This document shows, in pieces, positions 1 through 21,846 of a stretch of 55,566 nt of DNA. This stretch comes from Lachnospiraceae bacterium (GTDB taxonomy: Bacteria > Bacillota > Clostridia > Lachnospirales > Lachnospiraceae): the NCBI GenBank assembly GCA_015057615.1, contig SVEA01000086.1, forward strand, positions 1-55,566, given 5' to 3'. Position numbers and translations under genes: made by a program. The notes beneath the pieces were generated by a model. The model ran no database searches, had not been told where the DNA came from, and worked only from the letters and a program-made list of their open reading frames with translations. Position 1 is the first letter of the stretch. Every line of letters starts with the position of its first letter.

Positions 1-2
1 AC

Positions 3-124: not shown

Positions 125-297
125 AAAGAGTTTCGCTGGCAAAACTCTAGCGCCGAGCACGGCCAGCATCGCTGGCAAAATACTACGAATACATGTTTCA
201 AGTATTCGTTGCGTGCTGAGTGCGTCATCCCAATGCGAACTATGTTCGCATGGAGCATTTTCATTGAATAGAACGAAACCTTCCTATTCAATGAAAA
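125..297 (+). ncRNA. Structured repeat family R, copy R1 (candidate RNA element)
   Basis: First of three copies of a five-helix element, the others being 5931-6062 and 21674-21846. Seen in order: hairpin AGAGTTT.../...AACTCT (127-148); the conserved string GCGCCGA (150-156), whose GCGC and following AGCACG pair with GTGC and CGTGCT near 212-223 to close a junction; two hairpins inside it, CCAGC/GCTGG and CGAATAC/GTATTCG; conserved CATCC then ATGCGAAC/GTTCGCAT closed by TCC/GGA; and a 14-bp 3' hairpin (258-271 with 284-297). It lies just beyond the 3' end of the minus-strand binding-protein gene. Function unknown. A MITE-like origin is possible, but no terminal inverted repeat or target duplication was seen. 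Confidence 0.6.
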
Positions 298-301
298 TAG
301 G

Positions 302-349
302 AGCTGTTTCCTTCGTACAAACAGCCCCTACTCAAGCTTTTTTTAAGCT
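302..349 (-). terminator. Hairpins after the binding-protein gene
   Basis: On the minus strand the stop of the binding-protein gene is followed by AAGCTT/AAGCTT and then a GGGGCTGTTT/AAACAGCTCC hairpin ending in TATTTTC. This is a plausible intrinsic terminator for the prfB-cheW-binding protein run. Confidence 0.45.
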
Positions 350-1182
350 TACTTACTTGTATGATTTGCAGTAAACTCTTCTATCTTGCCATCCTCTATT
401 AACTGCTCAATTACCTTATTAATTTGATCCAATAATTCCTGATTTCCTTTCTGTATAGCAATTGCATATTTATCCTCAAATAAAGTTCCATCAAGAATTG
501 TTAGTTTTTCGTTAGAATCTACCAGCTCCTGTGCAGGATATTGATCCATAACAATACAGTCGATTTTACCATTCAAAAGGTCTTGTGCAGCCTGGGCAAA
601 TTTCGTATAGCGTTTGGTCTTTTTTGCTTTAATATTCTCTTCTACATAGAAGTCAGCAATATTTCCCTGCTGTACACCGATTACTTTATCCGTAAGATCA
701 TCCAAACTTGCTACGGCAGGATTCTCCTTATTCACAACGACTACTTCGGTGGAATTCACATAATCCATGGAAAAATCCATAACCTCCTGCCGGTCTTCGC
801 TCACCGAAACACCTGCAGCGACAAAATCAATGGTACCATTTTGAACCGCCATTAACGCTCCGTCAAAATCCATGTTTTTAATCACAAGTTCTTTTCCTAA
901 TGCATCCGCGATTGCCTTTGCTATATCCATATCAATACCGACAACCTCATTGCCCTCCATATATTCGTAAGGTGCAAATCCCGCTTCCGTACCAACGATG
1001 ATGGTCTTACTTTCTTCCTCATCCTTGTCGGCGTCTTGCTCGTTGTCTACATCCGGCTGCCCGCCGTTCTCTGTATTATTCTCCTGATTCCCGGCATCAT
1101 TTTTTTCTTTGGTTCCGCATGCCGCTAGGATCCCGGTCATCATCATTGCTAAAAATAGCAATCCAATTATTTTCTTTTTCAT
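349..1182 (-). CDS. Amino-acid ABC transporter substrate-binding lipoprotein (SBP_bac_3 family)
   Basis: This is an extracytoplasmic solute-binding protein of 277 residues, of the family that delivers polar amino acids to ABC importers. The N-terminus is a lipoprotein signal with lipobox LAAC and lipidated Cys at residue 22. An Asp/Glu/Asn-rich linker runs to about residue 58, and the binding domain (starting IIVGTEAGFAPYEY) fills the rest at normal family length. The start has GGAGG 13-14 nt upstream. No permease or ATPase gene is adjacent, so it either uses a transporter encoded elsewhere or serves as a sensory binding protein. It follows cheW by about 48 nt on the same strand. The specific ligand cannot be read from sequence. 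Confidence 0.85.
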   Translation of the reverse strand: MKKKIIGLLFLAMMMTGILAACGTKEKNDAGNQENNTENGGQPDVDNEQDADKDEEESKTIIVGTEAGFAPYEYMEGNEVVGIDMDIAKAIADALGKELVIKNMDFDGALMAVQNGTIDFVAAGVSVSEDRQEVMDFSMDYVNSTEVVVVNKENPAVASLDDLTDKVIGVQQGNIADFYVEENIKAKKTKRYTKFAQAAQDLLNGKIDCIVMDQYPAQELVDSNEKLTILDGTLFEDKYAIAIQKGNQELLDQINKVIEQLIEDGKIEEFTANHTSK

Positions 1183-1230
1183 ATACTTTCTTTTATTCCT
1201 CCAATTATTTGCAAATCGTCAAGCAGTATC

Positions 1231-1689
1231 CTATTGCTTAAGCATTGCTTTTATTTTGCTTTGCTCCTCCTCGGATAAAATGCCATCAAGCTCCATAAGA
1301 ATCAATAAATGGTCATTACTTTTCGTTACTGCTTTGATATAAGAGGTGTCTTTATTCTTAACCAGCGGCGGAACGTCCAGGATCTGTTCTTCTTCAAATG
1401 CAACAATTTCTTCCATTTTATCCACTTCATAAGCGATCGTTATTCCATTGGAGTTGGTTACTATGAGCCTTGTATCCTCATCCGCTTCTTTCTCCTTCAG
1501 CCTAAATTTCTTACGAAGGCTGTATACCGGAAGCTTATCTCCACGGAGTATAATCATGCCTTTCATATTCGCCGGGGCATTGGCAGCTTTCTCAATAGGA
1601 ACCGGCTTCTCTATGGAATTAATATTCATGATATCCAATCCGTAACTTTCTTCCCCAAGCTTGAAAATTGCCTGTTTTGTACTTTGCAT
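1231..1689 (-). CDS. cheW: CheW-like chemotaxis coupling protein
   Basis: CheW is the cytoplasmic adaptor linking methyl-accepting chemoreceptors to the CheA kinase. The 152-residue product is a single CheW domain: N-terminal beta strands (QAIFKLGEESYGLDI), the family-typical MKGMIILRGDKLPVYSL segment near residue 45, and the strand NGITIAYEVDKMEEI. The length is normal. It lies only 11 nt after the prfB stop and ahead of the binding lipoprotein, so it is probably cotranscribed from the secA-prfB side rather than from a chemotaxis operon. A C-terminal acidic/basic helix (LSEEEQSKIKAMLKQ) extends slightly past the core. It could be a CheV-type adaptor without a receiver domain, but CheW is the simplest reading. 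Confidence 0.9.
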   Translation of the reverse strand: MQSTKQAIFKLGEESYGLDIMNINSIEKPVPIEKAANAPANMKGMIILRGDKLPVYSLRKKFRLKEKEADEDTRLIVTNSNGITIAYEVDKMEEIVAFEEEQILDVPPLVKNKDTSYIKAVTKSNDHLLILMELDGILSEEEQSKIKAMLKQ

Positions 1690-1700
1690 TGTAACCCCTC

Positions 1701-2826
1701 CTATGAAATTACTTCACTTTTCTTTTGTGCATTCCATTTTAGATATGCGTTAATAAATGGATCAATATTACCGTCTAAAACACTGTTTGCATTTCCGATT
1801 TCTTCGTTTGTTCTATGGTCCTTTACCATCGTATAAGGCTGCATCACATAGGACCGAATCTGATTTCCCCATCCGATTTCCTTGACCTCTCCGCGAATAT
1901 CCGAGATTTTCTCTTGATTTTCCTGCTGCCTAAGCAGATATAGCTTTGCTTTCAGCATCTGCATCGCTTTATCCTTGTTCTGCAATTGGGAACGTTCATT
2001 CTGGCATTGAACTACAATATTCGTGGGAATATGGGTAATTCTTATCGCGGAGGAAGTCTTGTTAACATGCTGGCCGCCTGCTCCGCTGGAATGATAGGTA
2101 TCAATTCTTAAATCCTTCTCATCAATCTCAATTCCGGTATCCTCTTCAATATCCGGCATAACATCACAGGAAACAAAGGAAGTCTGCCGCTTTCCTGCCG
2201 CATTAAACGGTGAGATTCGTACCAAGCGATGAACGCCTCGTTCTGATTTCAGATAGCCGAAAGCATTAAAGCCATTGATCTCCATCGTAATGGATTTTAA
2301 CCCGGCTTCATCGCCATCCAAAAAGTCCAGAATTTCAACCTGAAAGCCTTTCTTATCCGCCCATCTCTGATACATACGGCTGAGCATGCCTGCCCAATCA
2401 CAGCTTTCGGTCCCCCCTGCGCCTGCGTGCAGAGTAAGAATCGCATTGTAGCTGTCATATTCTTCAGAGAGTAACGTTTTCAGCTTCAGTTCTTCCATTC
2501 CCTGAATAAATTCCTCCAAGGCTTCACTAATCTCAGGTAAAAGTGATGAATCATTTTCTTCATAACCTATTTGAATGAGTGTTTCAACATCGTCATATCT
2601 GGTCTTAAGCTGGTGAAATTCCTCCACCGTATCTTTCAGGTTCTTCAATTCCTTCATCAGACCCTGCGCCTTATCGGCTTCCTCCCAAAAACCGGGTTCT
2701 TCCATGGTTTGTTCAATTTCCCTTATCCGATTTTTCTTACCGGCAAGGTCAAAGTGAATCCCCCATTTCGTTTAATGGTTGTTCATACGTGCTTAGTGTA
2801 TATTTATACTGATCTAATTCTACCAC
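1701..2826 (-). CDS. prfB: Peptide chain release factor 2, with programmed +1 frameshift
   Basis: RF2 ends translation at UGA and UAA. The reading frame starts at a GTG (2826-2824) behind AGAGGTGG and encodes 25 codons ending CTT (2754-2752), followed by an in-frame TGA (2751-2749). Shifting by one base (CTT T GAC) joins it to a 349-residue frame, giving 374 residues. GGGGG lies just upstream of the shift site, as in the classical autoregulatory frameshift: low RF2 lets the ribosome slip at the UGA. Counted over the fused protein, the stop-codon recognition motif SPF is at 205-207 and the catalytic GGQ at 250-252. It lies downstream of secA and upstream of cheW. The frameshift makes a single-frame start at 2705 wrong. 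Confidence 0.95.
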
Positions 2827-3045
2827 TATACCACCTCTTTCAATTTATTATATATCGCATTTAATAAAAATGCAATACCAAATTATAAAAATACATTATT
2901 TGCATTCCTATCTATCCATATATTCTATTTTTCTACGGTTCAAAGCCATATAATTTACTTCTTCATTCCCGTATATTATATGACTTAACCATACTAGCAG
3001 CATACGCTGCAGCTTTTTAATTTTATACTTTATACATTATTTCGT

Positions 3046-3088
3046 TAAATAAGGGTTGTTGCAAAACAAATACAACAACCTCTTATAT
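3046..3088 (-). terminator. Weak intrinsic terminator after secA
   Basis: GGTTGTTG and CAACAACC form an 8-bp stem just after the secA stop, followed on the minus strand by CTTATTT. The U tract is poor, so read-through into prfB is likely. Confidence 0.45.
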
Positions 3089-3099
3089 GCCGACAATAT

Positions 3100-5673
3100 T
3101 TATACATTTCTTCCGCAGCAATGCTTATATTTACGACCGCTTCCACATGGGCAGGGATCGTTCGGTTGAATCTTCTTACCGGTTCTTTTTACCGGAGTAT
3201 TGGCAGTGCTATCGTCACGGTTGGTACCGGTAACCTTCGCAACCTCTTCTCTTTCCACCTTCTGCTCTACGCGGACATGCATTAATGCCTTTACCGTATC
3301 CTCTCGAATCGATGTGGTCATTGCCTCAAACATCTCATAGCCCTGGAATTTATATTCTATAATCGGCTGACGCTGTCCGTATGCCTGAAGTCCAATACCT
3401 TGGCGCAGCTGATCCATATCATCGATATGATCCATCCACTTTCGGTCAATTACCTTTAGCAGTATGACACGCTCTAACTCACGGATATGCTCGACCTCCG
3501 GGAATTCCGCCTCTTTGGCCTCATAATACTTAACCGCCTGCTCCTTCAGCTGTTGGATCAGATCATTCTTCTTCATATGCTTCATCTGCTCATCCGTCAG
3601 CTCGATTTCCGATAACGGAATAATCTGAAGCAGCAGATTATTTAATTCAGGAATATCCCAGTCCGGCGAAGGCTGGTCATCACCGATACAGGAATTCACA
3701 CATCCCTCTACGGTATCTGTAATCATACGGTAAATCGTATCCCGCATGCTTTCGCCGTCTAATACCCTTCTTCGCTCTGCATAGATAATTTCTCTTTGCT
3801 CATTATTCACCTGATCATATTCCAACAAATTCTTACGAATACCAAAGTTATTGCTCTCGATTCTCTTTTGCGCTTTTTCAATCGCATTGGAAAGCATCTT
3901 ATGCTCGATCTGTTCTCCTTCCGGAATACCCAAAGAGTTGAATATGCTCATCAGACGTTCCTGTCCGAACAGACGCATCAGATCATCTTCCAGTGATATA
4001 TAGAAACGGGATTCACCTGGATCTCCCTGTCTTCCGGCACGTCCACGAAGCTGATTATCAATACGTCTTGCCTCATGGCGCTCCGTTCCGATAATCTTTA
4101 ATCCGCCTGCCTCGACTACGCCTTCGCCCAATTTAATGTCCGTACCACGTCCTGCCATATTGGTTGCGATCGTTACCGCACCCAGCTGCCCGGCATCCGC
4201 AATAATTTCGGCTTCCATCTCATGGAACTTAGCGTTTAATACCTTATGGGGTATATTTTTTTTCTTTAACAGGGAGCTGATTTCTTCGGAGGATTCAATT
4301 GTTATGGTACCAACCAGAACCGGCTGGCCTTTCTTATGAGAATCAATGATCTCCTGAATGATCGCATTCAGTTTCTCATGCCTTGTCTTATATACCGCAT
4401 CCTGCTGGTCAATACGGATCACAGGCCGGTTTGTCGGAACCTCAATGACATCCATTCCGTAGATTTCTCTGAACTCCTGCTCTTCTGTTAAAGCAGTACC
4501 GGTCATACCGCACTTCTTATTATATTTATTAAAGAAGTTCTGGAACGTAATCGTTGCCAGTGTCTTACTCTCTCTTTTTACCTTAACGTTCTCTTTTGCT
4601 TCGATTGCCTGATGTAAGCCATCGCTGTAACGTCTGCCCGGCATAATACGTCCGGTAAATTCATCCACGATCAGGACCTCATCATCCTTAACCACATAAT
4701 CCTTATCCCGGAACATCAGATTATGTGCACGGAGGGCAAGTATAATATTATGCTGGATCTCAAGGTTCTCTGGATCTGCCAGGTTCTCAATATGGAAGAA
4801 ATCCTCAACCTTCTTAACGCCTTCCTCGGTCAGATTGACGTTCTTTTCTTTTTCATTAACAACAAAGTCGCCTTCCTCTTCGATTTCCTCTTTCATAAGA
4901 GCCGCCATCTTGGTAAGCTCCGCGCTTTCCTTTCCTTTGACCAGCTGCCGGGCAAGAATATCGCAGACACGGTATAATTCCGTGGATTTACCGCTTTGTC
5001 CGGAAATGATCAGAGGCGTTCTTGCTTCGTCAATTAAAACGGAATCCACCTCGTCAATAATCGCATAGTGAAGCTTACGCTGTACTAACTGTTCCTTATA
5101 GATAACCATGTTATCCCGCAGATAATCAAAACCTAATTCGTTGTTCGTAGCATAGGTGATATCGCATGCATAGGCTTCCCTGCGCTCATCCTTGTCCATA
5201 CTATTCAGGATAACACCAACCGTTAAGCCAAGGAATTCATGGATCTTCCCCATCCATTCCGCGTCACGTTTTGCCAGATAATCATTTACTGTTACAATAT
5301 GCACGCCCTCGCCTTCCAGGGCATTGAGATAAGCCGGTAAGGATGCCACCAGGGTCTTACCTTCACCGGTACGCATCTCCGTGATTCGTCCCTGATGTAA
5401 GATAACACCACCGATTAGCTGTACGCGGTAGTGCCGCATCCCAAGGACTCTCTTCGCAGCTTCCCGAACAACTGCATAAGCCTCCGGCAATAAATCATTT
5501 AATGTTTCACCATTTTTCAGTCTATTCTTAAATTCTTCTGTCTTTCCTCTCAAAGCTTCATCCGAAAGCTTTTCCATATCCGGTTCGAGAGCTTCAATTC
5601 TATCCACGACTGGTATGACTCGCTTAACTTCCCGTTCACTATGAGTCCCGAATATCTTCTCTATTAATCCCAT
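3100..5673 (-). CDS. secA: Preprotein translocase ATPase SecA
   Basis: SecA is the motor ATPase that drives unfolded secretory proteins through SecYEG at the membrane. The 857-residue product is full length. Visible parts in order: Walker A ([11 protein letters not shown], near residue 100), DEAD-like box ([14 protein letters not shown]), the preprotein cross-linking region, the second helicase domain ([16 protein letters not shown]), the helical scaffold ([16 protein letters not shown]), and a C-terminal zinc tail [13 protein letters not shown] that binds SecB or ribosomes in the family. It sits between hpf and prfB, an order common in clostridia. Confidence 0.98.
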
Positions 5674-5829
5674 AATTATTCACTCCTGTACTGTTCCGTA
5701 ATAATATAAACAATCATTCACCTTGTATTGTAACATTTACGTCCCTACTATTCAACTTATTTTTACTTTTATGACCGGAGTATCCATAGGTAAATCATTG
5801 AGAAAAAGGATTATTATAGGTTATGTAGG

Positions 5830-5930
5830 AAACTACCGGCAAGTAAAATTACCGCAGCAGGGCAGATCGGCGGGTAAATATGCGGTCACAAGGCCGAGAA
5901 AGCTGCCTGCCGGTACACTTGTCCGTTAAC
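5830..5930 (+). ncRNA. Foldable region with possible pseudoknot, 5' of structured copy R3
   Basis: Direct reading shows nested helices TACCGGCA (5834-5841)/TGCCGGTA (5908-5915), GGCAG (5861-5865)/CTGCC (5903-5907) and TCGGC (5867-5871)/GCCGA (5893-5897). In addition ACCGC (5851-5855) can pair with GCGGT (5882-5886), which crosses the second helix and would form a pseudoknot. TTACC (5849-5853) can instead pair with GGTAA (5873-5877), so the structures compete. The region runs straight into R3, suggesting one transcript of about 230 nt, perhaps from the weak TTGAGA/TATGTA-like signal near 5800-5827. No known riboswitch core was recognised. Confidence 0.45.
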
Positions 5931-6062
5931 AAAGAGTTTGCCTTGGCAAACTCTCGCGCCGAACGCGTTCTGCCGCAGGCAGATAAATACCTTATGCGTG
6001 AGTGTGCATCCTTATCGGAGCTTTTATTCTCGTATAGGACGCACTCCTATACGAGAATAAAA
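5931..6062 (+). ncRNA. Structured repeat family R, copy R3 (candidate RNA element)
   Basis: Third member of the R family, with a shared plan but different stem sequences. P1 is AGAGTTTGCC/GGCAAACTCT. The conserved GCGCCGA is followed by ACGC pairing with GCGT. The inner hairpin CTGCC/GGCAG replaces CCAGC/GCTGG. The conserved CATCC...GGAGC pair closes on a 5-nt loop instead of a long hairpin. The 3' helix (6022-6038 with 6046-6062) has the same position and ACG-containing loop as in R1 and R2 but a different stem. It lies between hpf and secA, antisense to their transcription, and its end overlaps the T tract of the hpf terminator. Confidence 0.6.
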
Positions 6063-6097
6063 AAACCGCCGCCGGTACCTATCGACCGGAGGCGGTT
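6053..6097 (-). terminator. Intrinsic terminator of hpf
   Basis: AAACCGCC (6062-6069) and GGCGGTTT (6090-6097) form a strong stem with further CCGG pairing inside. On the minus strand it is followed by a run of T, so it terminates hpf before secA. Confidence 0.85.
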
Positions 6098-6189
6098 TCC
6101 CCCTGCTAACCTAGCTAACATTATAACGAAAGCTGCAGTAATTACAAATTCTATACTGCTAAAAACTATTGTGAACCTTAGAAAGCATA

Positions 6190-6726
6190 TTAATACTCCG
6201 GTTCAATAAGACCGTAGGTATTGCCCTTTCTTTTATAAACAACATTTACCTCATCAGTTTGCGAATTCCGGAATACGAAGAAACTATGTCCCAACAGCTC
6301 CATCTGAACGCACGCTTCTTCCGGGTCCATTGGCTTAATAGCAAATTTCTTTGTCTTAACAATTTTGATGGTATCGTCTTCCTCATACTCATCATCCACA
6401 TATTTTTGATTAAAACTGGAAGCAGCCTGCTTATTATCAATAATTTTATTTTTATACTTTCTTAATTGACGTTCGATAATCTCCTCTACCAAATCGATGG
6501 AAACATACAAATCGCTGCTTGCCTGCTCCGCCCGGATAATATTTCCCTTCACCGGTATCGTAACCTCAATCTTTTGTCGTTCTTTTTCTGTACTAAGTGT
6601 TACATGCACTTCCGTATCAGGAGTAAAATATCTTTCAAGTTTTCCTATCTTTTCATAAACTGCTGTCTTTAAGCCCTCTGTGACGTCAATATTCTTACCA
6701 CTAATAATATAACGCATCGTGCTCAA
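6190..6726 (-). CDS. hpf: Ribosome hibernation promoting factor, long form
   Basis: Long-form HPF binds the 30S decoding centre with its N-terminal domain and dimerises 70S ribosomes into inactive 100S particles through its C-terminal domain. The 178-residue protein has both: an N-terminal RaiA/S30AE fold (IISGKNIDVTEGLKTAVYEK), a charged linker near residues 100-120, and the C-terminal domain (IVKTKKFAIKPMDPEEACVQ) ending near GLIEPEY. This length marks the Gram-positive long type. The start has AAAAGGAG upstream. It has its own near-consensus promoter and a strong terminator, so it is a single-gene unit ahead of secA. Confidence 0.96.
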   Translation of the reverse strand: MSTMRYIISGKNIDVTEGLKTAVYEKIGKLERYFTPDTEVHVTLSTEKERQKIEVTIPVKGNIIRAEQASSDLYVSIDLVEEIIERQLRKYKNKIIDNKQAASSFNQKYVDDEYEEDDTIKIVKTKKFAIKPMDPEEACVQMELLGHSFFVFRNSQTDEVNVVYKRKGNTYGLIEPEY

Positions 6727-6799
6727 CTCCTTTTTACATTCATGTCAGCATCCTCAGATCATGAGCAAAAAGCAGGTTCATGGTCTTGCTGCTCCACTC

Positions 6800-6824
6800 G
6801 GAAATTGCAAATTTTGCAATTCCT
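6800..6824 (-). promoter_or_regulatory. Hairpin in the hpf 5' leader
   Basis: The leader downstream of the hpf promoter contains an inverted repeat (GGAAaTTGCA/TGCAAaTTCC). A second weaker pairing (GAGCAGCAAG with CTTTTTGCTC) lies nearer the gene. They may affect mRNA stability or translation; no mechanism is shown. Confidence 0.35.
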
Positions 6825-6836
6825 CGTTACGCCTTT

Positions 6837-6865
6837 ATTATACCATAGAGCGAAAGAAGTGACAA
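6837..6865 (-). promoter_or_regulatory. Promoter of hpf
   Basis: TTGTCA (6865-6860) and TATAAT (6842-6837) are separated by 17 bases, one mismatch from the housekeeping consensus. It gives a leader of about 105 nt. Confidence 0.75.
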
Positions 6866-7101
6866 GCAACGATTCTGCTGTAAAATGGAATCGCATAAAA
6901 TATCACTAGTTTACATATTATCCCATATGATAATTACATAAATTTTATTTATTCGCCAAATTACAATTTATTACCGTTAATTTGTTATCTCTTTTCTTTA
7001 TTATCCGACAATTAAAAAGTCAAGCCGGAATTAAAATAAGAACCGGGGATTTTGTCGATTTATCATAAGTTACAAAACGCATTTTCGTCCTTGACACTAA
7101 G

Positions 7102-7201
7102 TTATCCATGCGACAGAGGTAGATGAATAATGTGGATAATGTGGATAAACCCGTGTATAACTTTATTTTATTCAAATATTCCGGTAATAACTTGTGGATA
7201 A
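7102..7201. promoter_or_regulatory. Cluster of DnaA-box-like sites in AT-rich DNA
   Basis: TGTGGATAA, a perfect DnaA box, occurs at 7131-7139, 7140-7148 (abutting) and 7193-7201. TTATCCATG (7102-7110, opposite orientation) and CGTGTATAA (7152-7160) are near matches. The surrounding 6.9-7.6 kb has no gene and is very AT-rich. This looks like an origin or DnaA-binding locus, but no dnaA or dnaN is present here. It may be a secondary DnaA-titrating site. Confidence 0.5.
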
Positions 7202-7518
7202 CTTTTTGATAATATGTAAATCGAATTGCAAGAATATACATTTTTTGTAAACCAAGTCAATTAATTTGTGCAAGTTGCACATTCCACATTTTGTCAATAG
7301 GACTTTTCGATAGTTCTGGTTTTTTCACAATAACAAAAAACTTTTCAAATTTAATCAATTTTCTAAATTTTTTGAATATTAACATAACATATTCAATTAT
7401 TTACTGGCTACCATATATTGTGTTCTTCTAAGGAATACCAACTAAACTGCATAATTCGAAGTAGATGTACAATTTTTTTGATCTCGTTCCAATAAACTTA
7501 TCCGAAACATTCATAAAA

Positions 7519-7574
7519 ACAGGCTATTTCCGGAATATTATCAAAGGAAAGATAATCTTGCCGGAATAGCCTGT
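7519..7574 (-). terminator. Intrinsic terminator of the PilZ gene
   Basis: ACAGGCTATT/AATAGCCTGT, with inner CCGG/CCGG and ATTATC/GATAAT pairing, forms a long stem. TTTTTATG follows on the minus strand. Confidence 0.85.
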
Positions 7575-7616
7575 CATTTCACAATTCCTATCCAGTTAAT
7601 GTATATTATTAATGTT

Positions 7617-7985: not shown

Positions 7986-8126
7986 AATATCCTCCATGCC
8001 GCCATCGGCAGCTCAAATCAGTAAGCAATATGAACTATTTTTTCTACACCCATCCTTATTTTAGCATAATACTTTTATTTTTCCAACTAGTAATTAGCAA
8101 CATTTACCAGTTTCATAAAGAAGAAG

Positions 8127-13938: not shown

Positions 13939-13966
13939 CCCTCATTTCTGCGCAGCTTTTTGCGCA
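13939..13966 (-). repeat. SD-bearing short repeat S upstream of yvyF
   Basis: TGCGCA and TGCGCA can pair around AAAAGC, followed by GAAATGAGGG, which supplies the ribosome site of yvyF. It lies between the comFC stop and the yvyF ATG. Confidence 0.6.
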
Positions 13967-13975
13967 TTTCTTCAC

Positions 13976-14698
13976 CTAATAGCCTTTTCCTATACATAAG
14001 GTGATAAACCAGATATCTTTTACCCCTTTGGACATTAACACATTGGTGCAAGCCTCGATTGTACTGCCGGTAGTAAAGATATCATCCACCAGTAAAATCT
14101 TATTTAATTCCTTATTAAAACGCTCTGCCACAGCTTCGTTATAGGCAAATGCCTCCTGTAGATTACGGAGACGCTCCTTATCGCTGAGCTGCTTTTGCGG
14201 CAGTGTTTTTTTATTTCGGACAAGCAAATCAGAGAGTACCGGATACGAAAGTCCCCTTCCCAGTCCGCAAGCAAGAAGCTCCGCCTGATTATATCCTCTT
14301 TCCCTATACTTACTGCGATGTAAGGGAACTGGCACGATCGCATCCGGAGAAAATCTTCTGATTTTATCTCCGTAGATACGAAGTAATTCCTCGATATAAA
14401 AATCTGCATATTCCCGTTTGCTGTGATATTTAAAAGCTGCAATGGAATGCCGCATGGTTTCATCATAGATCCAAAGCGCATACCCCTTTGTAAAATGGAA
14501 GCTCTTTTTCTCACAATCACTACAGAATTCCTTTTCCTCCTGCTCGATCGGTTTGCTGCATTTCTTACAACGGGGTTCCATGATATATTGCAGCTTGCTT
14601 CGGCACGGATCACAGACTTTATTCTTTTTCGGAAGTACAATCTCCCCGCAGACAGGACATCTGGGCGGATAAATCATATCCAGAATTGTTTGAAACAA
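13976..14698 (-). CDS. comFC: ComF-family phosphoribosyltransferase-like protein
   Basis: ComFC proteins are cytoplasmic amidophosphoribosyltransferase-like factors needed for DNA uptake in competent Firmicutes. The 240-residue product has two zinc-knuckle pairs at the N-terminus (CPVC...CDPC and CKKC...CSDC), the segment PVPLHRSKYRERGYNQAELL, and the PRPP-binding loop LLVDDIFTTGSTIEAC near residues 205-220. The start is an unusual TTG at 14698, supported by AAAGGAG 7 nt upstream. No other com genes are in the window, so competence itself is not shown. It lies between the nucleotidyltransferase and yvyF. Confidence 0.9.
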   Translation of the reverse strand: MFQTILDMIYPPRCPVCGEIVLPKKNKVCDPCRSKLQYIMEPRCKKCSKPIEQEEKEFCSDCEKKSFHFTKGYALWIYDETMRHSIAAFKYHSKREYADFYIEELLRIYGDKIRRFSPDAIVPVPLHRSKYRERGYNQAELLACGLGRGLSYPVLSDLLVRNKKTLPQKQLSDKERLRNLQEAFAYNEAVAERFNKELNKILLVDDIFTTGSTIEACTNVLMSKGVKDIWFITLCIGKGY

Positions 14699-14709
14699 TG
14701 CAAACTCCT

Positions 14710-15621
14710 TTATGCAAAAAGCTTAGACGGATAAACACCCTGATCGACTAGATCTTGAAATGATTTTACTACAGTTTCCTTATCCTCCCGGTAGGTTACG
14801 CCAAACCAGCGGTCCGCAGTCTTAAGAATCGTAACCTCGGCAAGCTGATTTGTAATGAGATCCCCAACGACCTCGGGAAGCAGATATTCTTTCTTATTCT
14901 GATTTACCTCGGTAAGCCCTGCTTGAAATTCAATAAATCCTTTTTCAAGTTCTGCGAACAGTACCGGTTTAAATCCCCACATATTCATGGATACCAGGCT
15001 GTTAAGGTCCAGGATGATATCGTTGCCATCCGGATCTTTTGCTGCTGCATGGTCTCCCTCTTTTTTAATTCCGGAGGTTTCCACAATACTTTTAAGAACT
15101 CCGTCTTCCCCCTTACATATACCACGCGTAACCGTTCCATTATCGCTTAACGTGTTCCCTAAGATAAAGCCCGCCATGCAATATTGATTCTCCTGATCGG
15201 ATGGCGTATTTAAAAATTGATAAATTTTCTGAAGGGCTTCCTTCCCGTAGTAATCATCCGCATTGATTACTGCAAAGGGTTCTTTCACGAGATCTTTGCA
15301 GCACAGGATCGCCTGCCCAGTTCCCCAGGGCTTTGTTCTGCCTTCCGGTTTTTTAAATCCGCTTGGCAGGTCCTCCAGCTCTTGAAATACATATTCAACC
15401 TGGATCAGCTTCTCGATACGGTTCCCGATCACTTCTTTAAAATCTTTCTCTAAATCCTTACGTATGATAAATACGATCTTATTAAAGCCTGCCTCAATCG
15501 CATCATAGATGGAATAATCCATAATAATCTCACCACTTGGACCTACCGGCTCCAATTGTTTAATTCCTCCGAAACGGCTTCCCATTCCTGCTGCCATAAT
15601 AACCAATGATGTCGTAGACAT
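14710..15621 (-). CDS. Sugar-phosphate nucleotidyltransferase-like protein
   Basis: The product is a Rossmann-like NTP transferase, the class that activates sugar phosphates as NDP-sugars or CDP-alcohols in the cytoplasm. From the chosen ATG it has 303 residues. The signature AAGMGSRFGGIKQLEPVG is at the N-terminus, VINADDYYG carries the metal-binding Asp near residue 115, and SLVSMNMWGF follows. An in-frame TTG five codons upstream exists, but GGGGGAAG is properly spaced for this ATG. There is no left-handed beta-helix tail, so no acyl or acetyl transfer domain. The substrate is unknown; no sugar pathway genes are adjacent. Confidence 0.82.
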   Translation of the reverse strand: MSTTSLVIMAAGMGSRFGGIKQLEPVGPSGEIIMDYSIYDAIEAGFNKIVFIIRKDLEKDFKEVIGNRIEKLIQVEYVFQELEDLPSGFKKPEGRTKPWGTGQAILCCKDLVKEPFAVINADDYYGKEALQKIYQFLNTPSDQENQYCMAGFILGNTLSDNGTVTRGICKGEDGVLKSIVETSGIKKEGDHAAAKDPDGNDIILDLNSLVSMNMWGFKPVLFAELEKGFIEFQAGLTEVNQNKKEYLLPEVVGDLITNQLAEVTILKTADRWFGVTYREDKETVVKSFQDLVDQGVYPSKLFA

Positions 15622-15747
15622 AGCAACTTCCCCCAATCAAATGTATTTATAATATTATATCGCATATTTCCAAAAAATGCACTATTTATTTACCTTCCTA
15701 TACTAGAATACCCATTTTTCTTGTGAAAATGCGGTAGTTTAATTGAA

Positions 15748-15997
15748 ATGGTGCCGTAAGTTATACATAAACCAAGAGCATGAATAGGACCTTATCTATA
15801 TTCGGGTTGGCTAAGAACGACTGACGCTGGCTGTTTATATTCGATTTGAGACTCAGGTGAAAATAGAGCTTACCTGCACGATATTTTCACTAAGCTTTAA
15901 GGCTCAAAGAAGAATATGTCAAATCAGGTAAGGCAGCCAAATGAATATAGAGTAGGTCCTATTCATGGCAATATCTAAAATCGACTTATGGCACCAT
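15748..15997. mobile_element. MITE-like element family D, copy D1 (250 bp)
   Basis: The ends are ATGGTGCC and GGCACCAT, each followed inward by a TAAGT/ACTTA arm. Further nested inverted repeats are CATGAATAGGACC/GGTCCTATTCATG, TCTATATTC/GAATATAGA and a central GTGAAAATA/TATTTTCAC hairpin, so the whole element can fold as one branched structure. A related, more degenerate copy is at 32794-32944. It fills the gap between recD2 and the nucleotidyltransferase. No clear target duplication was seen. Confidence 0.6.
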
Positions 15998-16025
15998 ATC
16001 ACTGCTTTATAAAATAAATAGTGTA

Positions 16026-18239
16026 TTACCTTAGCTCTTTTATTCTCTCACAAAGTCCGGAATACCGGTTCTGTTCGCTTTTATTATCGATCATATATTG
16101 CAGCATTTGTTCGCTGCCGACAATGGTAACACATTTTTTCGCCCGCGTTACCGCCGTATAAAGAAGATTCCGGTTAAACAGCAGCCTCGGCCCGTCAAGG
16201 ATCGGCAGAACAACGGCTGGGTATTCACTGCCCTGCGATTTATGAATAGTGACCGCATAGGCAAGCTCTAGCTCATCCAACTGACTGAAGGTATAATCCA
16301 CAAGACGGTTATCATCAAATTCAACAAGCAAATGCTCCGAAAACAAATTAATTTCCTTTATGATACCGGCATCTCCGTTAAATACACCGGTACCGGATTG
16401 AGTGACTATTTCGAATTGGTTCTTTACCTCCCAGGCAAGCTGATAGTTGTTCTTAATCTGCATGACCTTGTCCCCTTCCCGGTAGATGCTCTGATGGTAC
16501 TCTTTCTCTTTTTTATCACCGGAAGGCGGATTAAGCGCCTGCTGTAAAACCTGATTTAAGCGTTCCACGCCCAGCTCTCCCTTTCGCATCGGTGTCAGAA
16601 CCTGTATATCAAAGGAGGTAGCATTCACATACCTCGGCAGCTTGTTCTTGATTAAATTAATCATAACCGCAATGATGACATTTGCCTCTAGCCGCCTTAG
16701 AAAGAAGAAATCCCTGCTCTTATTATCCAGGCGTATCGGCTCTCCGGCATTAATTTTATGCGCATTTACAATAATATCACTGCCTGCTGCCTGCCGGAAG
16801 ATCTTGGTCAGCATAACCACATTAAAGCTATGGGACTCAATAATGTCCTTTAGCACATTCCCGGGTCCGACGCTTGGCAGCTGATTAACATCACCAACCA
16901 GAATCAGCCGGGTGCCGACGGAGACTGCTTTAAGCAGGGAATGCATCAAACCGATATCCACCATCGACATTTCATCAATAATAAGAACATCCGCCTCCAG
17001 AGGATTTCCTTCGTTGCGTTCAAAGAGAAAATTACCTTCTCCCTCGGCAAGCTTCGATAGCTCCAGAAGTCTGTGGATTGTTTTTGCCTCATACCCAGTC
17101 GTTTCCGTCATACGCTTCGCCGCTCTTCCCGTCGGCGCTGCAAGCAGAATATCAAGCCCCTCTGCCTCAAATAATTTAATAATTGCATTGATTGTTGTCG
17201 TCTTCCCGGTGCCGGGTCCTCCGGTTACCACAAGCAGCCCGTTACCAGCCGCTTCCATCACTGCCGTTCTCTGCTGCTCCTCCAATTCAATCTCAAAATG
17301 CTCTTCAATTGCCGCCATTTTCTTTCTTACATCATCCGGCGGCAATTCATAGCGTATGTTCAGATCATGAAGCATTCTTGCCACATTCAGCTCCATATAG
17401 TAAAACATTGCGGAATAAATCAGCCTGCCGGATTCCGTCTCTTTTATTACAACCTTCTTTTCCAGAGTAATCGCCGTAAGCTGCCTTACAATATTGTCTT
17501 CCTCCGCATGCAGCAGCTCCCTTGCCCGCTGCATAATTTCCTTCTCTGGCAGATAGACATGCCCATCATTCCCAGCCTGAAGAAGGGTATAGAGAATCCC
17601 CGCTCGGATTCGATAATCTGAATCGCTTCCGATCCCGACCTTTCTTGCGATCTCATCCGCTGTTTTAAAGCCTACGCCGGTGATATCCTCCGCCAGCCGA
17701 TAAGGATTCTCCCGCAGAATATCATACATTCTCTGCCCATACTCCTGAAATATTTTTACCGCCAGATTGCCGCTGATATTATATTGCTGCAAAAACAGCA
17801 TGGCGCTGCGCATTTCCCTTTTCTCTTCAAACTGAACACAGATATTCCTTGCCATCCGTTCACTGATTCCTTTAATCTCGGCAAGACGTTCCGGCTCTTC
17901 TTCAATAATTCGAAAGGAATCCTTTTTGAATTTCTTGACAATGCGTTTCGCTAATGCGGCTCCGATTCCCTTAATCGCTCCGGAGCTCAAATAGCGTTCC
18001 ACCGAGACCAAATCCTCCGGTTCCTTCATATGGTAACTGTCAACCACGAATTGAACTCCATAGACCGGATGGTCGGTATATCCACCGGAGGCAGTAAGAT
18101 ATTCTCCTTCGCTGATAAAAGGGAAATTACCTACACAGGTCATTTCCTCCTCATCCGCCTGCAGGCTTAATACCGTATAGCCATTGTCATCATTATGAAA
18201 AACTATTTTCGAGACATATCCTTCAATCTCGTCTGCCAT
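16026..18239 (-). CDS. recD2: RecD2-type ATP-dependent DNA helicase
   Basis: RecD2 is a 5'-3' superfamily 1 helicase active in DNA repair independently of RecBC. From the ATG at 18239 the product is 737 residues. It has the RecD2-specific N-terminal OB/helix-hairpin-helix region (KGIGAALAKRIVKKF, EIKGISERMARNI, TGVGFKTADEIARKVGI), Walker A VVTGGPGTGKTTTINAI near residue 345, Walker B ADVLIIDEMSMVD, motif III LILVGDVNQLPSVGPG and the C-terminal UvrD-like motif AYAVTIHKSQGSEYP. An upstream in-frame codon adds seven residues, but GGAGGTGATG is placed for the chosen ATG. No recB or recC is present here. Confidence 0.95.
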   Translation of the reverse strand: MADEIEGYVSKIVFHNDDNGYTVLSLQADEEEMTCVGNFPFISEGEYLTASGGYTDHPVYGVQFVVDSYHMKEPEDLVSVERYLSSGAIKGIGAALAKRIVKKFKKDSFRIIEEEPERLAEIKGISERMARNICVQFEEKREMRSAMLFLQQYNISGNLAVKIFQEYGQRMYDILRENPYRLAEDITGVGFKTADEIARKVGIGSDSDYRIRAGILYTLLQAGNDGHVYLPEKEIMQRARELLHAEEDNIVRQLTAITLEKKVVIKETESGRLIYSAMFYYMELNVARMLHDLNIRYELPPDDVRKKMAAIEEHFEIELEEQQRTAVMEAAGNGLLVVTGGPGTGKTTTINAIIKLFEAEGLDILLAAPTGRAAKRMTETTGYEAKTIHRLLELSKLAEGEGNFLFERNEGNPLEADVLIIDEMSMVDIGLMHSLLKAVSVGTRLILVGDVNQLPSVGPGNVLKDIIESHSFNVVMLTKIFRQAAGSDIIVNAHKINAGEPIRLDNKSRDFFFLRRLEANVIIAVMINLIKNKLPRYVNATSFDIQVLTPMRKGELGVERLNQVLQQALNPPSGDKKEKEYHQSIYREGDKVMQIKNNYQLAWEVKNQFEIVTQSGTGVFNGDAGIIKEINLFSEHLLVEFDDNRLVDYTFSQLDELELAYAVTIHKSQGSEYPAVVLPILDGPRLLFNRNLLYTAVTRAKKCVTIVGSEQMLQYMIDNKSEQNRYSGLCERIKELR

Positions 18240-18274
18240 TTCATCACCTCCGATAAACAACGCATCATTGCAAA

Positions 18275-18330
18275 AATGTCATTTCGAATAAAAATCCCAC
18301 AAAACCCGGATTCCCATTCGAAATGACATT
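18275..18330 (-). terminator. Long hairpin after the flagellar gene run
   Basis: AATGTCATTTCGAAT (18275-18289) and ATTCGAAATGACATT (18316-18330) are a perfect 15-bp inverted repeat, with T-rich sequence following on the minus strand. It probably ends the mbl-flhO-flhP-rod-binding transcript. The size also fits a tiny palindromic repeat. Confidence 0.6.
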
Positions 18331-18383
18331 CAAGTGCTTACTACTATAATTTTCTGGACGAAACAAATTGCTTTGATCTAATC

Positions 18384-18710
18384 TTATGCGTTTCGCTTCA
18401 TTGATTCATACAGCATCTGCGCTATACCGAGTCCTTCCCCTTCCGTTGCACTCTTTGCATATTCCTCATAAAGAATGTCACCAAATTGCTCTAGATAAGG
18501 ATTCTTGTTCTCCCTTCCCGGGATCGTTTTCTCCATTTCCTTCATTACCTGGGTCAAAAGGTAGGTTTCAAAGCTTTTACATACTTCCTTCAATTCTTCA
18601 TCGGAAGCATTCTCCTTCTTTAACTTCTCCTGGAGCTGCTCCGCCTTCACTTGATCGCTCGTTATGCCTGCCGCTGCGGAATACATGTCCGAACCGATTG
18701 CTATACTCAT
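18384..18710 (-). CDS. Flagellar rod-binding protein (FlgJ N-terminal-like)
   Basis: The product is 108 residues and matches the rod-binding domain found at the N-terminus of FlgJ, which caps and assembles the flagellar rod. The core is SDEELKEVCKSFETYLLTQV, followed by MKEMEKTIPG and ILYEEYAKSATEGEGLGIAQMLYESM. The muramidase half of classical FlgJ is absent, as is common in Firmicutes, so wall opening must come from another hydrolase. It follows flhP by 18 nt and ends the operon. The symbol is left open because the single-domain form has no settled name. Confidence 0.88.
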   Translation of the reverse strand: MSIAIGSDMYSAAAGITSDQVKAEQLQEKLKKENASDEELKEVCKSFETYLLTQVMKEMEKTIPGRENKNPYLEQFGDILYEEYAKSATEGEGLGIAQMLYESMKRNA

Positions 18711-18728
18711 CGCACTCTCCCTATTCTA

Positions 18729-19541
18729 CTATCTTAAATTATTTGCCTGCTGCAACATTTCATCCGCAGCTGTAATAACCTTCGAATTCATTTCATAAGC
18801 TCTTTGAGCAACAATTAAGTTGGTAATCTCATCTACCGACTGCACGTTAGAGCCTTCCAAATACTTTTGATGAATTTTACTCTTATGCAGCGCTCCATCC
18901 TCGGATTCAAGGCGTGCCATGCCGGAGGCATCGGTCTCTTTCAGTAAGCTGTTTGCTATCTTTAATAAGCCACTGGGATTGTTAAACTGTGCCAGTCCGA
19001 TCTGGATTCCGATCGGTATATCATTATTATCCTCATCTGGATAGCAGAGCTCGCCAGCATCATTAATCGTAATTCTTGATGGATTATAGGCTGCATCGAT
19101 TACGATCGGTGAACCGGTGGTATCGAGTACCGGATTTCCGTCGGAGGTAGCAAGCGTTACTCCGTTCATACCATTTGCCAGCTGGAAGGAACCGTTTCTT
19201 GTATAAGCGACCCCTCCGTCACGGGTCTGCACCATGAAGAAACCCTGTCCTTCAATAGCAAAATCATAATCGTTGCCGGTTTCTAAAAGATTCCCCTGCG
19301 TATACCGGGACGTAATTGCAGAATTGCGGACGCCGAGTCCCACCTGAATTCCAGATGGCTTCGGATCACCGTTATTATCATAGGATTGCTCCTGAATTGT
19401 CTGATATAATAATGATTTGAATTCCGCTGTTTCTTTCTTAAACCCAGTCGTATTGACATTTGCCAGATTATTGGCGATGGTATCCACATTGGTCTGCTGT
19501 GTCATCATTCCCGTTGCTGCTGTCCATAAGGATCGCATCAT
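18729..19541 (-). CDS. flhP: Flagellar hook-basal body protein FlhP (FlgG-like)
   Basis: The protein is a flagellar rod/hook component exported by the flagellar type III system. The 270-residue product begins MMRSLWTAATGMMTQQTNVDTIANNLANVNT, the heptad-rich N-terminal rod motif, and ends with the partner motif SVDEITNLIVAQRAYEMNSKVITAADEMLQQAN. Its middle has GQGFFMVQTRDGGVAYTRNG, typical of FlgG-like proteins. In Bacillus, flhO and flhP lie directly after mbl, the same order as here. The name FlgG would be equally acceptable by sequence alone. Confidence 0.88.
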   Translation of the reverse strand: MMRSLWTAATGMMTQQTNVDTIANNLANVNTTGFKKETAEFKSLLYQTIQEQSYDNNGDPKPSGIQVGLGVRNSAITSRYTQGNLLETGNDYDFAIEGQGFFMVQTRDGGVAYTRNGSFQLANGMNGVTLATSDGNPVLDTTGSPIVIDAAYNPSRITINDAGELCYPDEDNNDIPIGIQIGLAQFNNPSGLLKIANSLLKETDASGMARLESEDGALHKSKIHQKYLEGSNVQSVDEITNLIVAQRAYEMNSKVITAADEMLQQANNLR

Positions 19542-19554
19542 AATGATCTACCTC

Positions 19555-20328
19555 CTATATTTTACCAACTGAATTTGCTGCCAAATCCAGTGTTTTATCG
19601 ATTGATTGTATTACCTTCTGATTCGCTTCATAGGTTCGGGTAACGGTGATCAAATCAACCATCTCTTTTACGACATTCACATTGGACTGTTCGGTATAGC
19701 CCTGCCGCACGGATGCACCCGATGGGATTTCCACCGCTCCTTCCAGCGCCTCATACATGGTATCTCCGGATTTTATGAGGTAATCGTAGTTATCAAAATC
19801 AGAAACCTGTACCGTATCAATATAGTTCCCGTCTCCGTAAATATCACCGTTCTCATCAATGATCACATCGGAAATATCCGCCGGGATCAGGATCTCACCG
19901 CTTTCTCCTAACAGGTGGTTCCCATCCTTATCGACAATCGCTCCATCCTTCGTCATGGTAAACGAACCGTCCCGCGTATATTTCGTACTGACATTCCCAG
20001 CCCTGTCCGTAACCGCGAGAGCAAAGAAACCCCTGCCCTCCAAAGCCAGATCATAGGTATTGGAGGTCTGCCTTAAGGATCCCTGATTATAATCGGTATA
20101 AACTTCTCCTAATTTAACACCAAGATTCATATTACCGATTGGCCTGTCATTATAAGCCTCGGACTCATCCCTGATTTTCAGGGTCAGTACCTCATCAAAA
20201 GATTGATTCGTAACACTTTCCTTCTTGTAACCTGTCGTTGCTGCATTTGCCAGATTATTTGCAACGATATCCAGCCGCTTTTGTTCATTCGACATTCCGG
20301 TATAAGCGGTATATAGTCCTCTTACCAT
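19555..20328 (-). CDS. flhO: Flagellar hook-basal body protein FlhO (FlgF/FlgG-like)
   Basis: A second rod protein of 257 residues, 13 nt upstream of flhP. The N-terminus VRGLYTAYTGMSNEQKRLDIVANNLANAATTGYKKE and C-terminus NVNVVKEMVDLITVTRTYEANQKVIQSIDKTLDLA are the conserved helical segments that pack in the axial structure. GRGFFALAVTDRAGNVSTKYTRDGSF is the middle domain. It lies 34 nt after mbl and is probably cotranscribed with it. The FlhO name rests on synteny with mbl. Confidence 0.87.
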   Translation of the reverse strand: MVRGLYTAYTGMSNEQKRLDIVANNLANAATTGYKKESVTNQSFDEVLTLKIRDESEAYNDRPIGNMNLGVKLGEVYTDYNQGSLRQTSNTYDLALEGRGFFALAVTDRAGNVSTKYTRDGSFTMTKDGAIVDKDGNHLLGESGEILIPADISDVIIDENGDIYGDGNYIDTVQVSDFDNYDYLIKSGDTMYEALEGAVEIPSGASVRQGYTEQSNVNVVKEMVDLITVTRTYEANQKVIQSIDKTLDLAANSVGKI

Positions 20329-20362
20329 ATTAAACCCTCTCTCTTCTTTTGTAACTGATCCT

Positions 20363-21352
20363 TTAGTCTCTCTTCCCGCTTAGGAATTCAACAAATTTAC
20401 CTGTTCCGATTGCCACTGCTGTCATAGGATCTTCCGCTGTCATTGTTGTAATCCCGGTCTTTTCTTCAACCAATTCTTCCAATCCATAAAGAAGGCATCC
20501 GCCACCAGTCAGTACAATACCGCGGTCTGCGATATCTGCCGCCAATTCCGGAGGCGTTTTTTCTAGCACGCTGTGAACTGATTCCACGATCTGAGAGGTT
20601 GTCTCCTTTAACGCTTCCTCGGTTTCCTCGGAGCTGACTTCAATCGTCTTAGGGAGACCGGTAACAAGGTTACGTCCTCTAACCTCCATCGAAATAGATT
20701 CCGGTCTGCGATAAGCGGAGCCTATCTTAATTTTAATATCCTCTGCCGTTCTCTCACCGATCAGCAGATTATGTTTCTTTCTCATATAGCGAATGATCGC
20801 ATCGTCAAAATCATCTCCGGCTATTTTAACCGAAGTACTTACCACGGTACCGCCTAGGGAAATGACTGCAATATCCGTTGTACCGCCGCCGACATCTACT
20901 ATCATATTACCACATGGCCTGGAAATATCAATGCCAGCTCCGATTGCTGCAGCGATCGGCTCCTCAATAATGGCAACCTCTCTGGCTCCTGCCTGATAGG
21001 TCGCATCCTCTACCGCTTTCTTTTCCACTTCGGTAACTCCGCTTGGGACACAGACACTGATCCTCGGCTTACGAAATCTCTGCTTGCCGACCGCCTTCTG
21101 GATAAAGTATTTCAGCATCTTCTCGGTTACGGTATAATCGGAAATAACACCCTGTCTTAACGGACGTACCGCTATAATGTTCCCAGGTGTTCTTCCAAGC
21201 ATTAACCTCGCTTCTTCTCCGATTGCTTTAATCTTATTCGTATCCCTGTCGAAAGCAACCACGGAAGGCTCCTTCAAAACGACTCCTTTGCCCTTTATAT
21301 AAACTAACACACTAGCTGTCCCCAAATCAATTCCAATATCACTGCCCAACAT
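20363..21352 (-). CDS. mbl: MreB-family cell-shape protein Mbl
   Basis: Mbl is a bacterial actin that positions elongasome wall synthesis on the cytoplasmic face of the membrane. The 329-residue product is full length. The phosphate-1 loop is DIGIDLGTASVLVY, the phosphate-2 loop NMIVDVGGGTTDIAVISLGG near residue 158, and the adenosine motif GIVLTGGGCLLYGLEELV near residue 285. The name Mbl, rather than MreB, is chosen because the next genes are flhO and flhP and no mreC or mreD follows. spoIIID, which precedes mbl in Bacillus, is absent. A promoter is visible at 21492-21520. Confidence 0.92.
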   Translation of the reverse strand: MLGSDIGIDLGTASVLVYIKGKGVVLKEPSVVAFDRDTNKIKAIGEEARLMLGRTPGNIIAVRPLRQGVISDYTVTEKMLKYFIQKAVGKQRFRKPRISVCVPSGVTEVEKKAVEDATYQAGAREVAIIEEPIAAAIGAGIDISRPCGNMIVDVGGGTTDIAVISLGGTVVSTSVKIAGDDFDDAIIRYMRKKHNLLIGERTAEDIKIKIGSAYRRPESISMEVRGRNLVTGLPKTIEVSSEETEEALKETTSQIVESVHSVLEKTPPELAADIADRGIVLTGGGCLLYGLEELVEEKTGITTMTAEDPMTAVAIGTGKFVEFLSGKRD

Positions 21353-21491
21353 AAAATGTATCTCCTTTCCTTCCTATCGTATATGGATTCTCCATATTTT
21401 ATAAGTATTTTCCTATCAAATTTATAGCGGTATAAATACATACTATTTATATTTTCTTCCAATCTTCGGTAACTTAAACATACTCTATTAT

Positions 21492-21520
21492 ATTATATAC
21501 GTTTTTTCCGTATTTTTCAA
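21492..21520 (-). promoter_or_regulatory. Promoter of the mbl-flhO-flhP operon
   Basis: TTGAAA (21520-21515), a 17-base spacer and TATAAT (21497-21492). The leader would be about 130 nt. Confidence 0.65.
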
Positions 21521-21673
21521 AGGATATTTTAAAAAGTTTTATTAATCGTCAAATTTCTCAGATAATTTAAGGAACCAATCCCGTAATATTCTAAATATTC
21601 TACTTTTTTGATGCCTTATTGAGGGATATTGCTGTTTGTATTATAATAGAAATATGCTCGTACGTAAACCTTA

Positions 21674-21846
21674 TTTTTATTGAATAGGAAATTTCGTCCT
21701 AATCAATAAAAAATGCTCCATGCGAACATAGTTCGTATTGGGATGACGCACTCAGCACGTAACGAATACTTGAAACATGTATTCGTAGTATTTTGCCAGC
21801 GATGCTGGCCATGCTCGGCGCTAGAGTTTCGCAAGCGAAACTCTTT
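21674..21846 (-). ncRNA. Structured repeat family R, copy R2 (candidate RNA element)
   Basis: This copy is close to R1 but on the opposite strand. Its P1 hairpin AGAGTTTCGC/GCGAAACTCT is perfect, whereas R1 has a mismatch. In the junction helix AGCATG pairs with CGTGCT through a U-G pair where R1 has a C-G pair. The 3' hairpin (21674-21713) has a different stem from R1 but the same place and ACGAAA loop. It lies upstream of mbl in the same transcriptional sense and 20 nt from the divergent membrane-protein gene. Confidence 0.6.

Follow-up and report, generated by a model that had tools for sequence, protein, structure and literature searches.

A short, structured and mobile repeat dispersed through Lachnospiraceae genomes, commonly beside terminator-like hairpins

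Insertion without target duplication is a property of IS200/IS605 and REP/RAYT elements. IS200/IS605 elements are also reported to have a strand-specific link to the lagging-strand template (PMC6006769), and group IIC introns insert directly after Rho-independent terminators with a preference for the template of lagging-strand synthesis (PMC8919778). Among small repeats, bcr repeats are non-coding, interspersed and 100-400 bp long, reach up to 130 bcr1 copies per strain, and have mobile features, with repeated TTTAT motifs and a proposed movement resembling site-specific recombination (PMC6542083), and the pneumococcal repeats BOX, RUP and SPRITE are small, interspersed and extensive in secondary structure, with 60.8-63.3% on the leading strand (PMC3049150). 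Here, we describe a folded, mobile element from a Lachnospiraceae bacterium, three copies of which lie in a window of 55,566 nucleotides (the whole stretch of DNA analyzed: contig SVEA01000086.1 of assembly GCA_015057615.1, positions 1 to 55,566). R1 (121..298, + strand) and R3 (21674..21851, - strand) are long, subtype A copies, and R2 (5926..6054, + strand) is a short, subtype B copy. The original prediction, made from the sequence alone, had placed three structured copies at these places and on these strands, and the same helix order was confirmed in each.

The consensus structure comprises a P1 hairpin of the AAAGAGTTTCGCTTGCGAAACTCT kind; P2a, in which GCGCC pairs with G(U)GCGC, followed by a GA/GA internal loop and P2b (GCGCG/CGCGC); a P3 hairpin; some ten bases of joining strand; P4 (UCC...GGA); and P5, a long hairpin rich in A/T around a conserved core, TAGGACG...TTTCCTA. 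We evaluated it in two alignments, both fitted to the covariance model described below, so that the counts lean towards the model: A4 (101 rows, 97 distinct, with 12 rows also in the model's own alignment) and A5 (89 rows from named genomes, none in the model's alignment and 3 identical to A4 rows), together 190 rows, of which 183 are distinct. In the distinct rows of A4, pairing holds in 96.3% of cells, and both sides change in 43 of the 44 pairs, with a covariation score of 0.412 against 0.141 when shuffled; the 89 rows of A5 gave 96.9% pairing, changes on both sides in 40 of 44 pairs, and a score of 0.438 against 0.127. In neither alignment did any of 500 shuffles reach the observed score, and slid structures scored 0.03-0.08. 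These counts retain ten reverse-strand P5 matches (six rows in A4, four in A5); other A4 counts used 92, 91 or 88 rows, after rows that were short, duplicate, gappy or had short or N-bearing flanks were dropped. The predicted five-helix structure is thus strongly supported, and the covariation by which a non-coding RNA is recognized is present, as measured by statistics that ignore kinship. Variants of the fold also occur: in three relatives' loci (L087 and L131 of genome G014, L073 of G008), a second hairpin (AAGCTTGC...GCAAGCTT) stands between P1 and P2.

Three copies proved a large underestimate. All three are real, but the source genome (4.07 Mb in 215 contigs) gave at least 43 matches in a BLAST search with R1 (40 of 100 candidates scored) and at least 129 matches at E ≤ 0.01 with a covariance model (150 of 2402 candidates scored). 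The model was built from 12 sequences of the source genome and its genus, with R1, R2 and R3 all left out, on a hand-drawn structure of 132 positions and 44 pairs; it nevertheless found R1 at 124-297 (E 1.7e-12), R2 at 5930-6060 (E 7.9e-23) and R3 at 21674-21847 (E 9.8e-18). Two of the 129 matches are the reverse strand of other copies' P5 palindrome, leaving at least 127 places. Run on genus, family and class, the model found the element well beyond the window: in 25 of 34 genomes of the genus (E ≤ 0.001), in 134 of 299 sampled Lachnospiraceae genomes (E ≤ 1e-4, stricter filters), representing 133 of 298 sampled genera, and in 14 of 391 genomes of a class sample, where seven were Lachnospiraceae and the seven from other families had one weak match each (E 4e-8 to 8.5e-5). 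A pattern scan of named genomes returned at least 80 records; among the matches listed were Coprococcus comes, Butyrivibrio, [Clostridium] aminophilum, Clostridium fessum, Hungatella, Kineothrix, Herbinix and Anaerocolumna, as well as numerous Lachnospiraceae and a few titled only Clostridiales, Clostridiaceae, Eubacteriales or bacterium. Plasmids and phages yielded one weak partial match each, and IMG/VR one matching contig. The phage match, a partial copy at MT837746.1:878-934, lies on an unverified scaffold of 6.3 kb that was recorded from human feces and is possibly bacterial DNA.

The comparison with Rfam that had been proposed alongside the model search gave no family: release 15 had no match to the element, neither at gathering score in the window nor at E ≤ 5 in positions 1-7000, nor was the element matched as a family at E ≤ 1 in seven relative loci, where an rhtB match (E 0.86, 26.4 bits against a cut-off of 55) overlaps the end of the copy in L120. 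We recognized no description of the element in the open-access literature searched, and a possible link to the 5S rRNA expansion segments of Lachnospiraceae was followed with none found in passages of PMC7812874.

Comparison with relatives shows that the element is mobile and, at two sites, inserted precisely and without target duplication. The spacer between secA and hpf that holds R2 lacks it in the relative G007: the source genome reads CTTGTCCG, the element from TTAACAAAGAG to CCTATACGA, and then GAATAAAAAAACCGCC, where G007 reads CTTATCCG GAATCAAAAACCGCC. The site of a second source-genome copy (L030:3008-3181) is empty in both G007 and G018; the source reads CTTCTT, the element from AGTAGC to CCTATACG, and then ACAAGATAAAGCAC, with CTTCTT ACAAGATAAAGCAC in G007 and CTCCCACAAGATAAAGCAC in G018. 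This join is ambiguous by one A, and neither empty site has a target duplication or loss, R2's left flank being somewhat diverged. Mobility is shown by these two empty sites, found among 15 copies for which they were sought (R2 and 14 others); at the site of a third copy, L041, G007 keeps a remnant that includes part of P1 and the end of P5, which means that this site was already occupied when the two genomes diverged, and the remaining 12 had no informative match in relatives. A miniature inverted-repeat transposable element moved by a DDE transposase, for which target duplication is the mark, is not supported by the two empty sites, and the element's ends (5' GTAGC/AYAAG, 3' CCTATACGA) do not, by eye, look like inverted repeats. 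Elsewhere, copies stand in tandem, head to tail without spacer (L326, L335, L022:3057-3350, L172 and G297 C1:2059992-2060444, the last an array of three with a period of about 150 bases), and the element's own 5' end, A-rich and with the P1 hairpin next to it, looks like a target site. The left flanks of two further source-genome copies, L018 and L009, match several places in G007 (that of L018 also G026) and look like other dispersed repeats by their sequence.

At the empty sites, the basal 3' arm of P5 is target DNA, paired by the element's own T-rich 5' arm. The 3' stem of the original prediction therefore exists as a helix, but its base belongs in part to the target. R2 shows this clearly, with TTTTATTC against GAATAAAA where most of its kin have TTTTTTAT or TTTTTTGT. 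Among 56 subtype B copies of the source genome (those of 100 P5 stretches that were of one subtype and parsable; some stretches of another subtype were listed twice), complementarity of the arm to its own flank scored 381.5 against 354.5 when permuted, the observed score being reached in 0 of 5000 permutations, and informative Watson-Crick pairs numbered 41 against 24.2.

The target is commonly a terminator-like hairpin. Such a hairpin stands to the right of 106 of 157 copies (drawn from the 190 rows of A4 and A5, deduplicated per file only), compared to 18 with one on the left and 16 when the right flanks were shuffled; a first pass over 88 rows of A4 gave 56/88 on the right, 9/88 on the left, 12/83 at 250 bases further and 41/440 in shuffled sequence. 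Where the right-hand open reading frame (ORF, called by length only) points at the element, the hairpin is present in 75 of 98 cases, and otherwise in 17 of 39. These counts indicate that the usual order on the bottom strand is gene, hairpin, T-tract, element. Five copies (L012, L125, L128, L132 and L145) adjoin a T-box-like motif by eye. In three genomes, copies of different subtypes (L012:2979-3158, L125 in G007 and L145 in G008) lie beside near-alike T-box-like leader ends, which from their sequence may be either a recurrent hot spot or an old shared insertion.

Copies are also oriented with respect to replication. Of 103 copies in eight genomes assembled in 1 to 5 contigs, 102 fit two arcs, each about half the genome, of opposite strand (one G135 copy on contig C2 and three G003 copies were left out). 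All 45 copies of G297 fit, compared to a maximum of 35 with random strands, and neither there nor in G224 did any of 60 random-strand trials match the observed fit. The flanks' GC skew, a measure that needs no fitted arcs, is negative on the element strand at 137 of 166 copies (of the 190 rows, deduplicated as above). The leading strand of Firmicutes is usually G-rich, and if that applies here the element strand would mostly be the lagging one. Across the source genome, 41 of 61 copies are antisense to most coding sequence (127 of the 129 matches were entered in its strand counts, the two reverse-strand ones being out, and the 61 include a few copies under two loci). The + strand of the window has a skew of -0.156 and 38,073 of 45,243 ORF bases lie on the - strand; with the + strand taken as lagging, R1 and R2 obey the orientation and R3 does not.

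That one strand is preferred for folding is strongly supported, and in P2 and P5 the counts favor the one originally proposed. G.U pairs exceed A.C mismatches on that strand by 213 to 77 over all helices, and by 27 to 9 in P2a, 47 to 8 in P2b and 96 to 19 in P5, supporting its folding in P2 and P5 as RNA or as single-stranded DNA. The excess does not by itself make the element an RNA or this sense the transcribed one, since an equal G.U (G.T) asymmetry could arise from a single DNA strand that folds.

From these computed sequence facts we infer a non-autonomous element of about 130-180 bp, inserted at replication forks beside terminator hairpins in the form of a folded single strand, with the P5 arm setting the join, a reading that we hold to be reasonably probable. 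The top strand would move as a folded single strand, RNA or DNA, and its T-rich 5' P5 arm would act as a short guide, pairing, where a terminator hairpin is opened at the fork, with the A-tract next to it; this pairing would set the joining point. A new copy would then be made in one orientation to the fork, whether an enzyme came in trans or the host's replication and repair proteins did the work, and insertion beside terminators, which would do little harm, may have allowed the high copy number.

Several observations weigh against this reading. (i) The G.U excess is not significant in P1 (24/19) or P3 (16/11), and P4 leans the opposite way (3/11, p 0.06). (ii) Because the arcs were fitted, small copy sets say little, and in G265, G079, G135, G137, G118 and G328 at least one of 60 random-strand trials did as well as the observed strands. 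(iii) The bias is weaker in the source genome, where 45 of 58 copies follow the orientation by skew (the set without doubly entered loci) and adjacent copies on one contig share a strand in 27 cases and oppose in 20; our guess is that more of its insertions are old or rearranged. (iv) No right-hand terminator-like hairpin accompanies 51 of the 157 copies, and R3 breaks both placement rules, as by GC skew it lies on the leading strand and no clear terminator-like hairpin stands at its 3' end. (v) The copy at L030:3008-3181 has the common arm and pairs imperfectly with its target, and the arm-flank match may, as far as sequence can tell, arise either because the arm chooses the target or because an imperfect palindrome is repaired later. 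(vi) No mobilizing enzyme was found by searches for Y1, RVT_1 and IS110 in the 13 genomes of the genus with at least 10 copies (G000, G004, G005, G007, G008, G010, G011, G012, G014, G018, G027, G030 and G031).

Terminal hairpins, the lack of target duplication and a strand bias linked to replication would also fit an HUH/Y1-type single-stranded-DNA transposase (IS200/IS605 or REP/RAYT-like) that moves the bottom strand, the lagging-strand template, with P5 and P1 as end hairpins, and some source-genome copies start with GTAG before P1, as GTAG-tagged REPs are reported to do (PMC3733652). We consider this unlikely, as the Y1 transposase (PF01797) is missing in 6 of the 13 element-rich genomes, the single match of the source genome lies in a 67-amino-acid open frame, no element was matched at E ≤ 0.1 in 22 of 30 Y1 loci, and G.U pairs favor the top strand in P2 and P5. 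Low-copy Y1-like genes with open frames of about 180-260 amino acids, which by their size we take to be RAYT-like, occur in the genus genomes G001, G004, G006, G008, G010, G014, G015, G016, G017 and G028, with no element copy in the searched loci.

The G.U excess on the top strand would instead suit a bacterial counterpart of short interspersed elements, in which a top-strand RNA is reverse-transcribed in trans, primed by a T-tract 3' end beside the terminator hairpin; the geometry agrees, the RNA 3' end abutting the bottom-strand T-tract, and terminators, as well as the template of the lagging strand, are used by group IIC introns (PMC8919778). This too appears doubtful, since the reverse transcriptase domain RVT_1 (PF00078) is missing in 10 of the 13 element-rich genomes and the four matches of the source genome are broken, short or below cut-off.

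The IS110 recombinase was likewise missing in 10 of the 13 genomes, and Rfam found no group II intron catalytic domain in the window, in positions 1-7000 or in the seven relative loci. The original prediction had named an ordinary transposon end as what would overturn it; as far as tested, on the Y1, RVT_1 and IS110 families searched, ends of IS200/IS605, IS110 or group II kind are unsupported. Nor was a version found that carries an ORF between two halves of the element: a strict regular-expression scan of 417 loci (1.86 Mb) returned only two spaced pairs, one (L305) joining a chance match within coding sequence as its 5' part to an isolated remnant as its 3' part, the other (L357) made of two neighboring copies, one partial by eye. 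The 100 5' and 109 3' motifs left unpaired owe this to the strictness of the expression and were not used.

Three of the element-rich genomes, G011, G012 and G030, lack Y1, RVT_1 and IS110 altogether (completeness is 96% for G012, and 78 and 81% for the others), which would fit movement without any dedicated enzyme, a nascent strand stalled at a terminator hairpin switching template to another copy through T-tract/A-tract pairing and then back. Fork orientation and A-tract/T-tract joins agree with such switching, which we nonetheless judge improbable, as an internal core conserved so deeply is suggestive of a specific binding partner. Furthermore, an exact double return to the original template is not, to our knowledge, common. 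Finally, a host regulatory RNA or gene-end element under selection, rather than a parasite, would account for the deep structural conservation, the sites near gene ends and the single well-scoring match in some genomes (e.g., G240), but is very improbable given that 165 of 299 family genomes have no match at the strictly filtered threshold used, that sites differ between close relatives and that partial and decayed copies occur.

Returning to insertion as a folded strand guided by the P5 arm, we tentatively raise, as a possibility of low probability, that the element represents a new class of mobile element: a folded RNA or single-stranded DNA of about 130 nt with a built-in guide for the terminator A-tract at the fork, copied by host replication without transposase or reverse transcriptase, whose guide helix would be completed, and perhaps rewritten, by each target. 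Orientation, terminators and a target-completed helix together fit no single known route, so identifying the element's enzyme, or showing that it needs none, could establish a new mode by which short sequences spread. Placed beside gene ends, the element may alter expression, and without an Rfam entry it occurs, in a major gut family, in 133 of the 298 genera sampled, at up to at least 129 matches per genome.

The window copies illustrate how the long and short forms differ. In R1, whose 5' end is at about 121 and intrinsic 3' end probably at about 291 by analogy with R2, P1 pairs 127-133 with 142-148, as read from sequence and predicted fold. The P2 region (150..225), read against the consensus, has P2a at 150-154 with 220 and 222-225, the GA/GA loop at 155-156 and 218-219, and P2b at 157-161 with 212-216, while RNAfold favors another register, 150-153 with 220-223. 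P3 (162-167 with 171-176) covaries in the family alignments. The extra hairpin of the long form (185..209; 185-192 with 202-209) and a lengthened P4 (228..254; 228-230 with 252-254 and 233-240 with 244-251), whose core pairs covary in the family alignments, are carried by R1 and R3, and R2 has neither; the extra hairpin is also missing from the other short forms inspected. P5 of R1 is a predicted hairpin (257..298; 257-271 with 284-298), the base of its 3' arm being probably target DNA by analogy with the two empty sites. The ends of R2 follow from the empty site in G007; its P5 pairs 6022-6039 with 6045-6062, the last eight bases of which (6055-6062) belong to the target and pair with 6022-6029 of the element itself. 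To the right, a terminator-like hairpin (6063..6098, - strand) stands at the 3' end of an S30AE (hpf-like) gene at 6190-6726, identified by Pfam. Two helices had been drawn in forms that hold for single copies: TTTCGC/GCGAAA is the P1 pairing of R3, that of R1 being imperfect, and GCGC/GTGC is the R2 form of what is in the family consensus a GCGCC helix with G(U)GCGC, one U bulged, beside the GA/GA loop.

Two further features of the window were noted. Beside R2 in the secA-hpf spacer, a stretch of about 92 bases (5821-5913) that by eye holds many inverted repeats is missing from the orthologous G007 spacer, and 420 kb of source-genome loci hold no second copy. A T-box leader (RF00230, 125.9 bits) lies at 34204-34432 on the - strand.

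Many non-coding, foldable and dispersed copies place the element among small interspersed mobile repeats of the bcr, BOX and REP kind. It resembles bcr1 of Bacillus cereus and its kin in being a short, non-coding, mobile interspersed repeat of many copies, but bcr repeats have repeated TTTAT motifs and the element shows no duplication at two empty sites, and it is family-wide, terminator-placed and fork-oriented. With BOX, RUP and SPRITE it shares small size, interspersion and strong folding; the pneumococcal repeats, however, favor the leading strand only slightly, compared to one orientation for nearly all copies of the element in eight genomes, and BOX and RUP have terminal inverted repeats. 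Insertion beside an intrinsic terminator (106 of 157 copies) recalls group IIC introns, from which the element differs in that its folded strand is the opposite one, that Rfam finds no intron match and that RVT_1 is missing in most element-rich genomes. End hairpins, insertion without target duplication and a strand-specific link to replication are shared with IS200/IS605 and REP/RAYT elements, yet Y1 is missing in 6 of the 13 element-rich genomes, and the element has a conserved multi-helix core and a guide-like arm that pairs with its flank. Each of the known kinds compared shares a part of these features, and the whole set is found in the Lachnospiraceae element alone among them.

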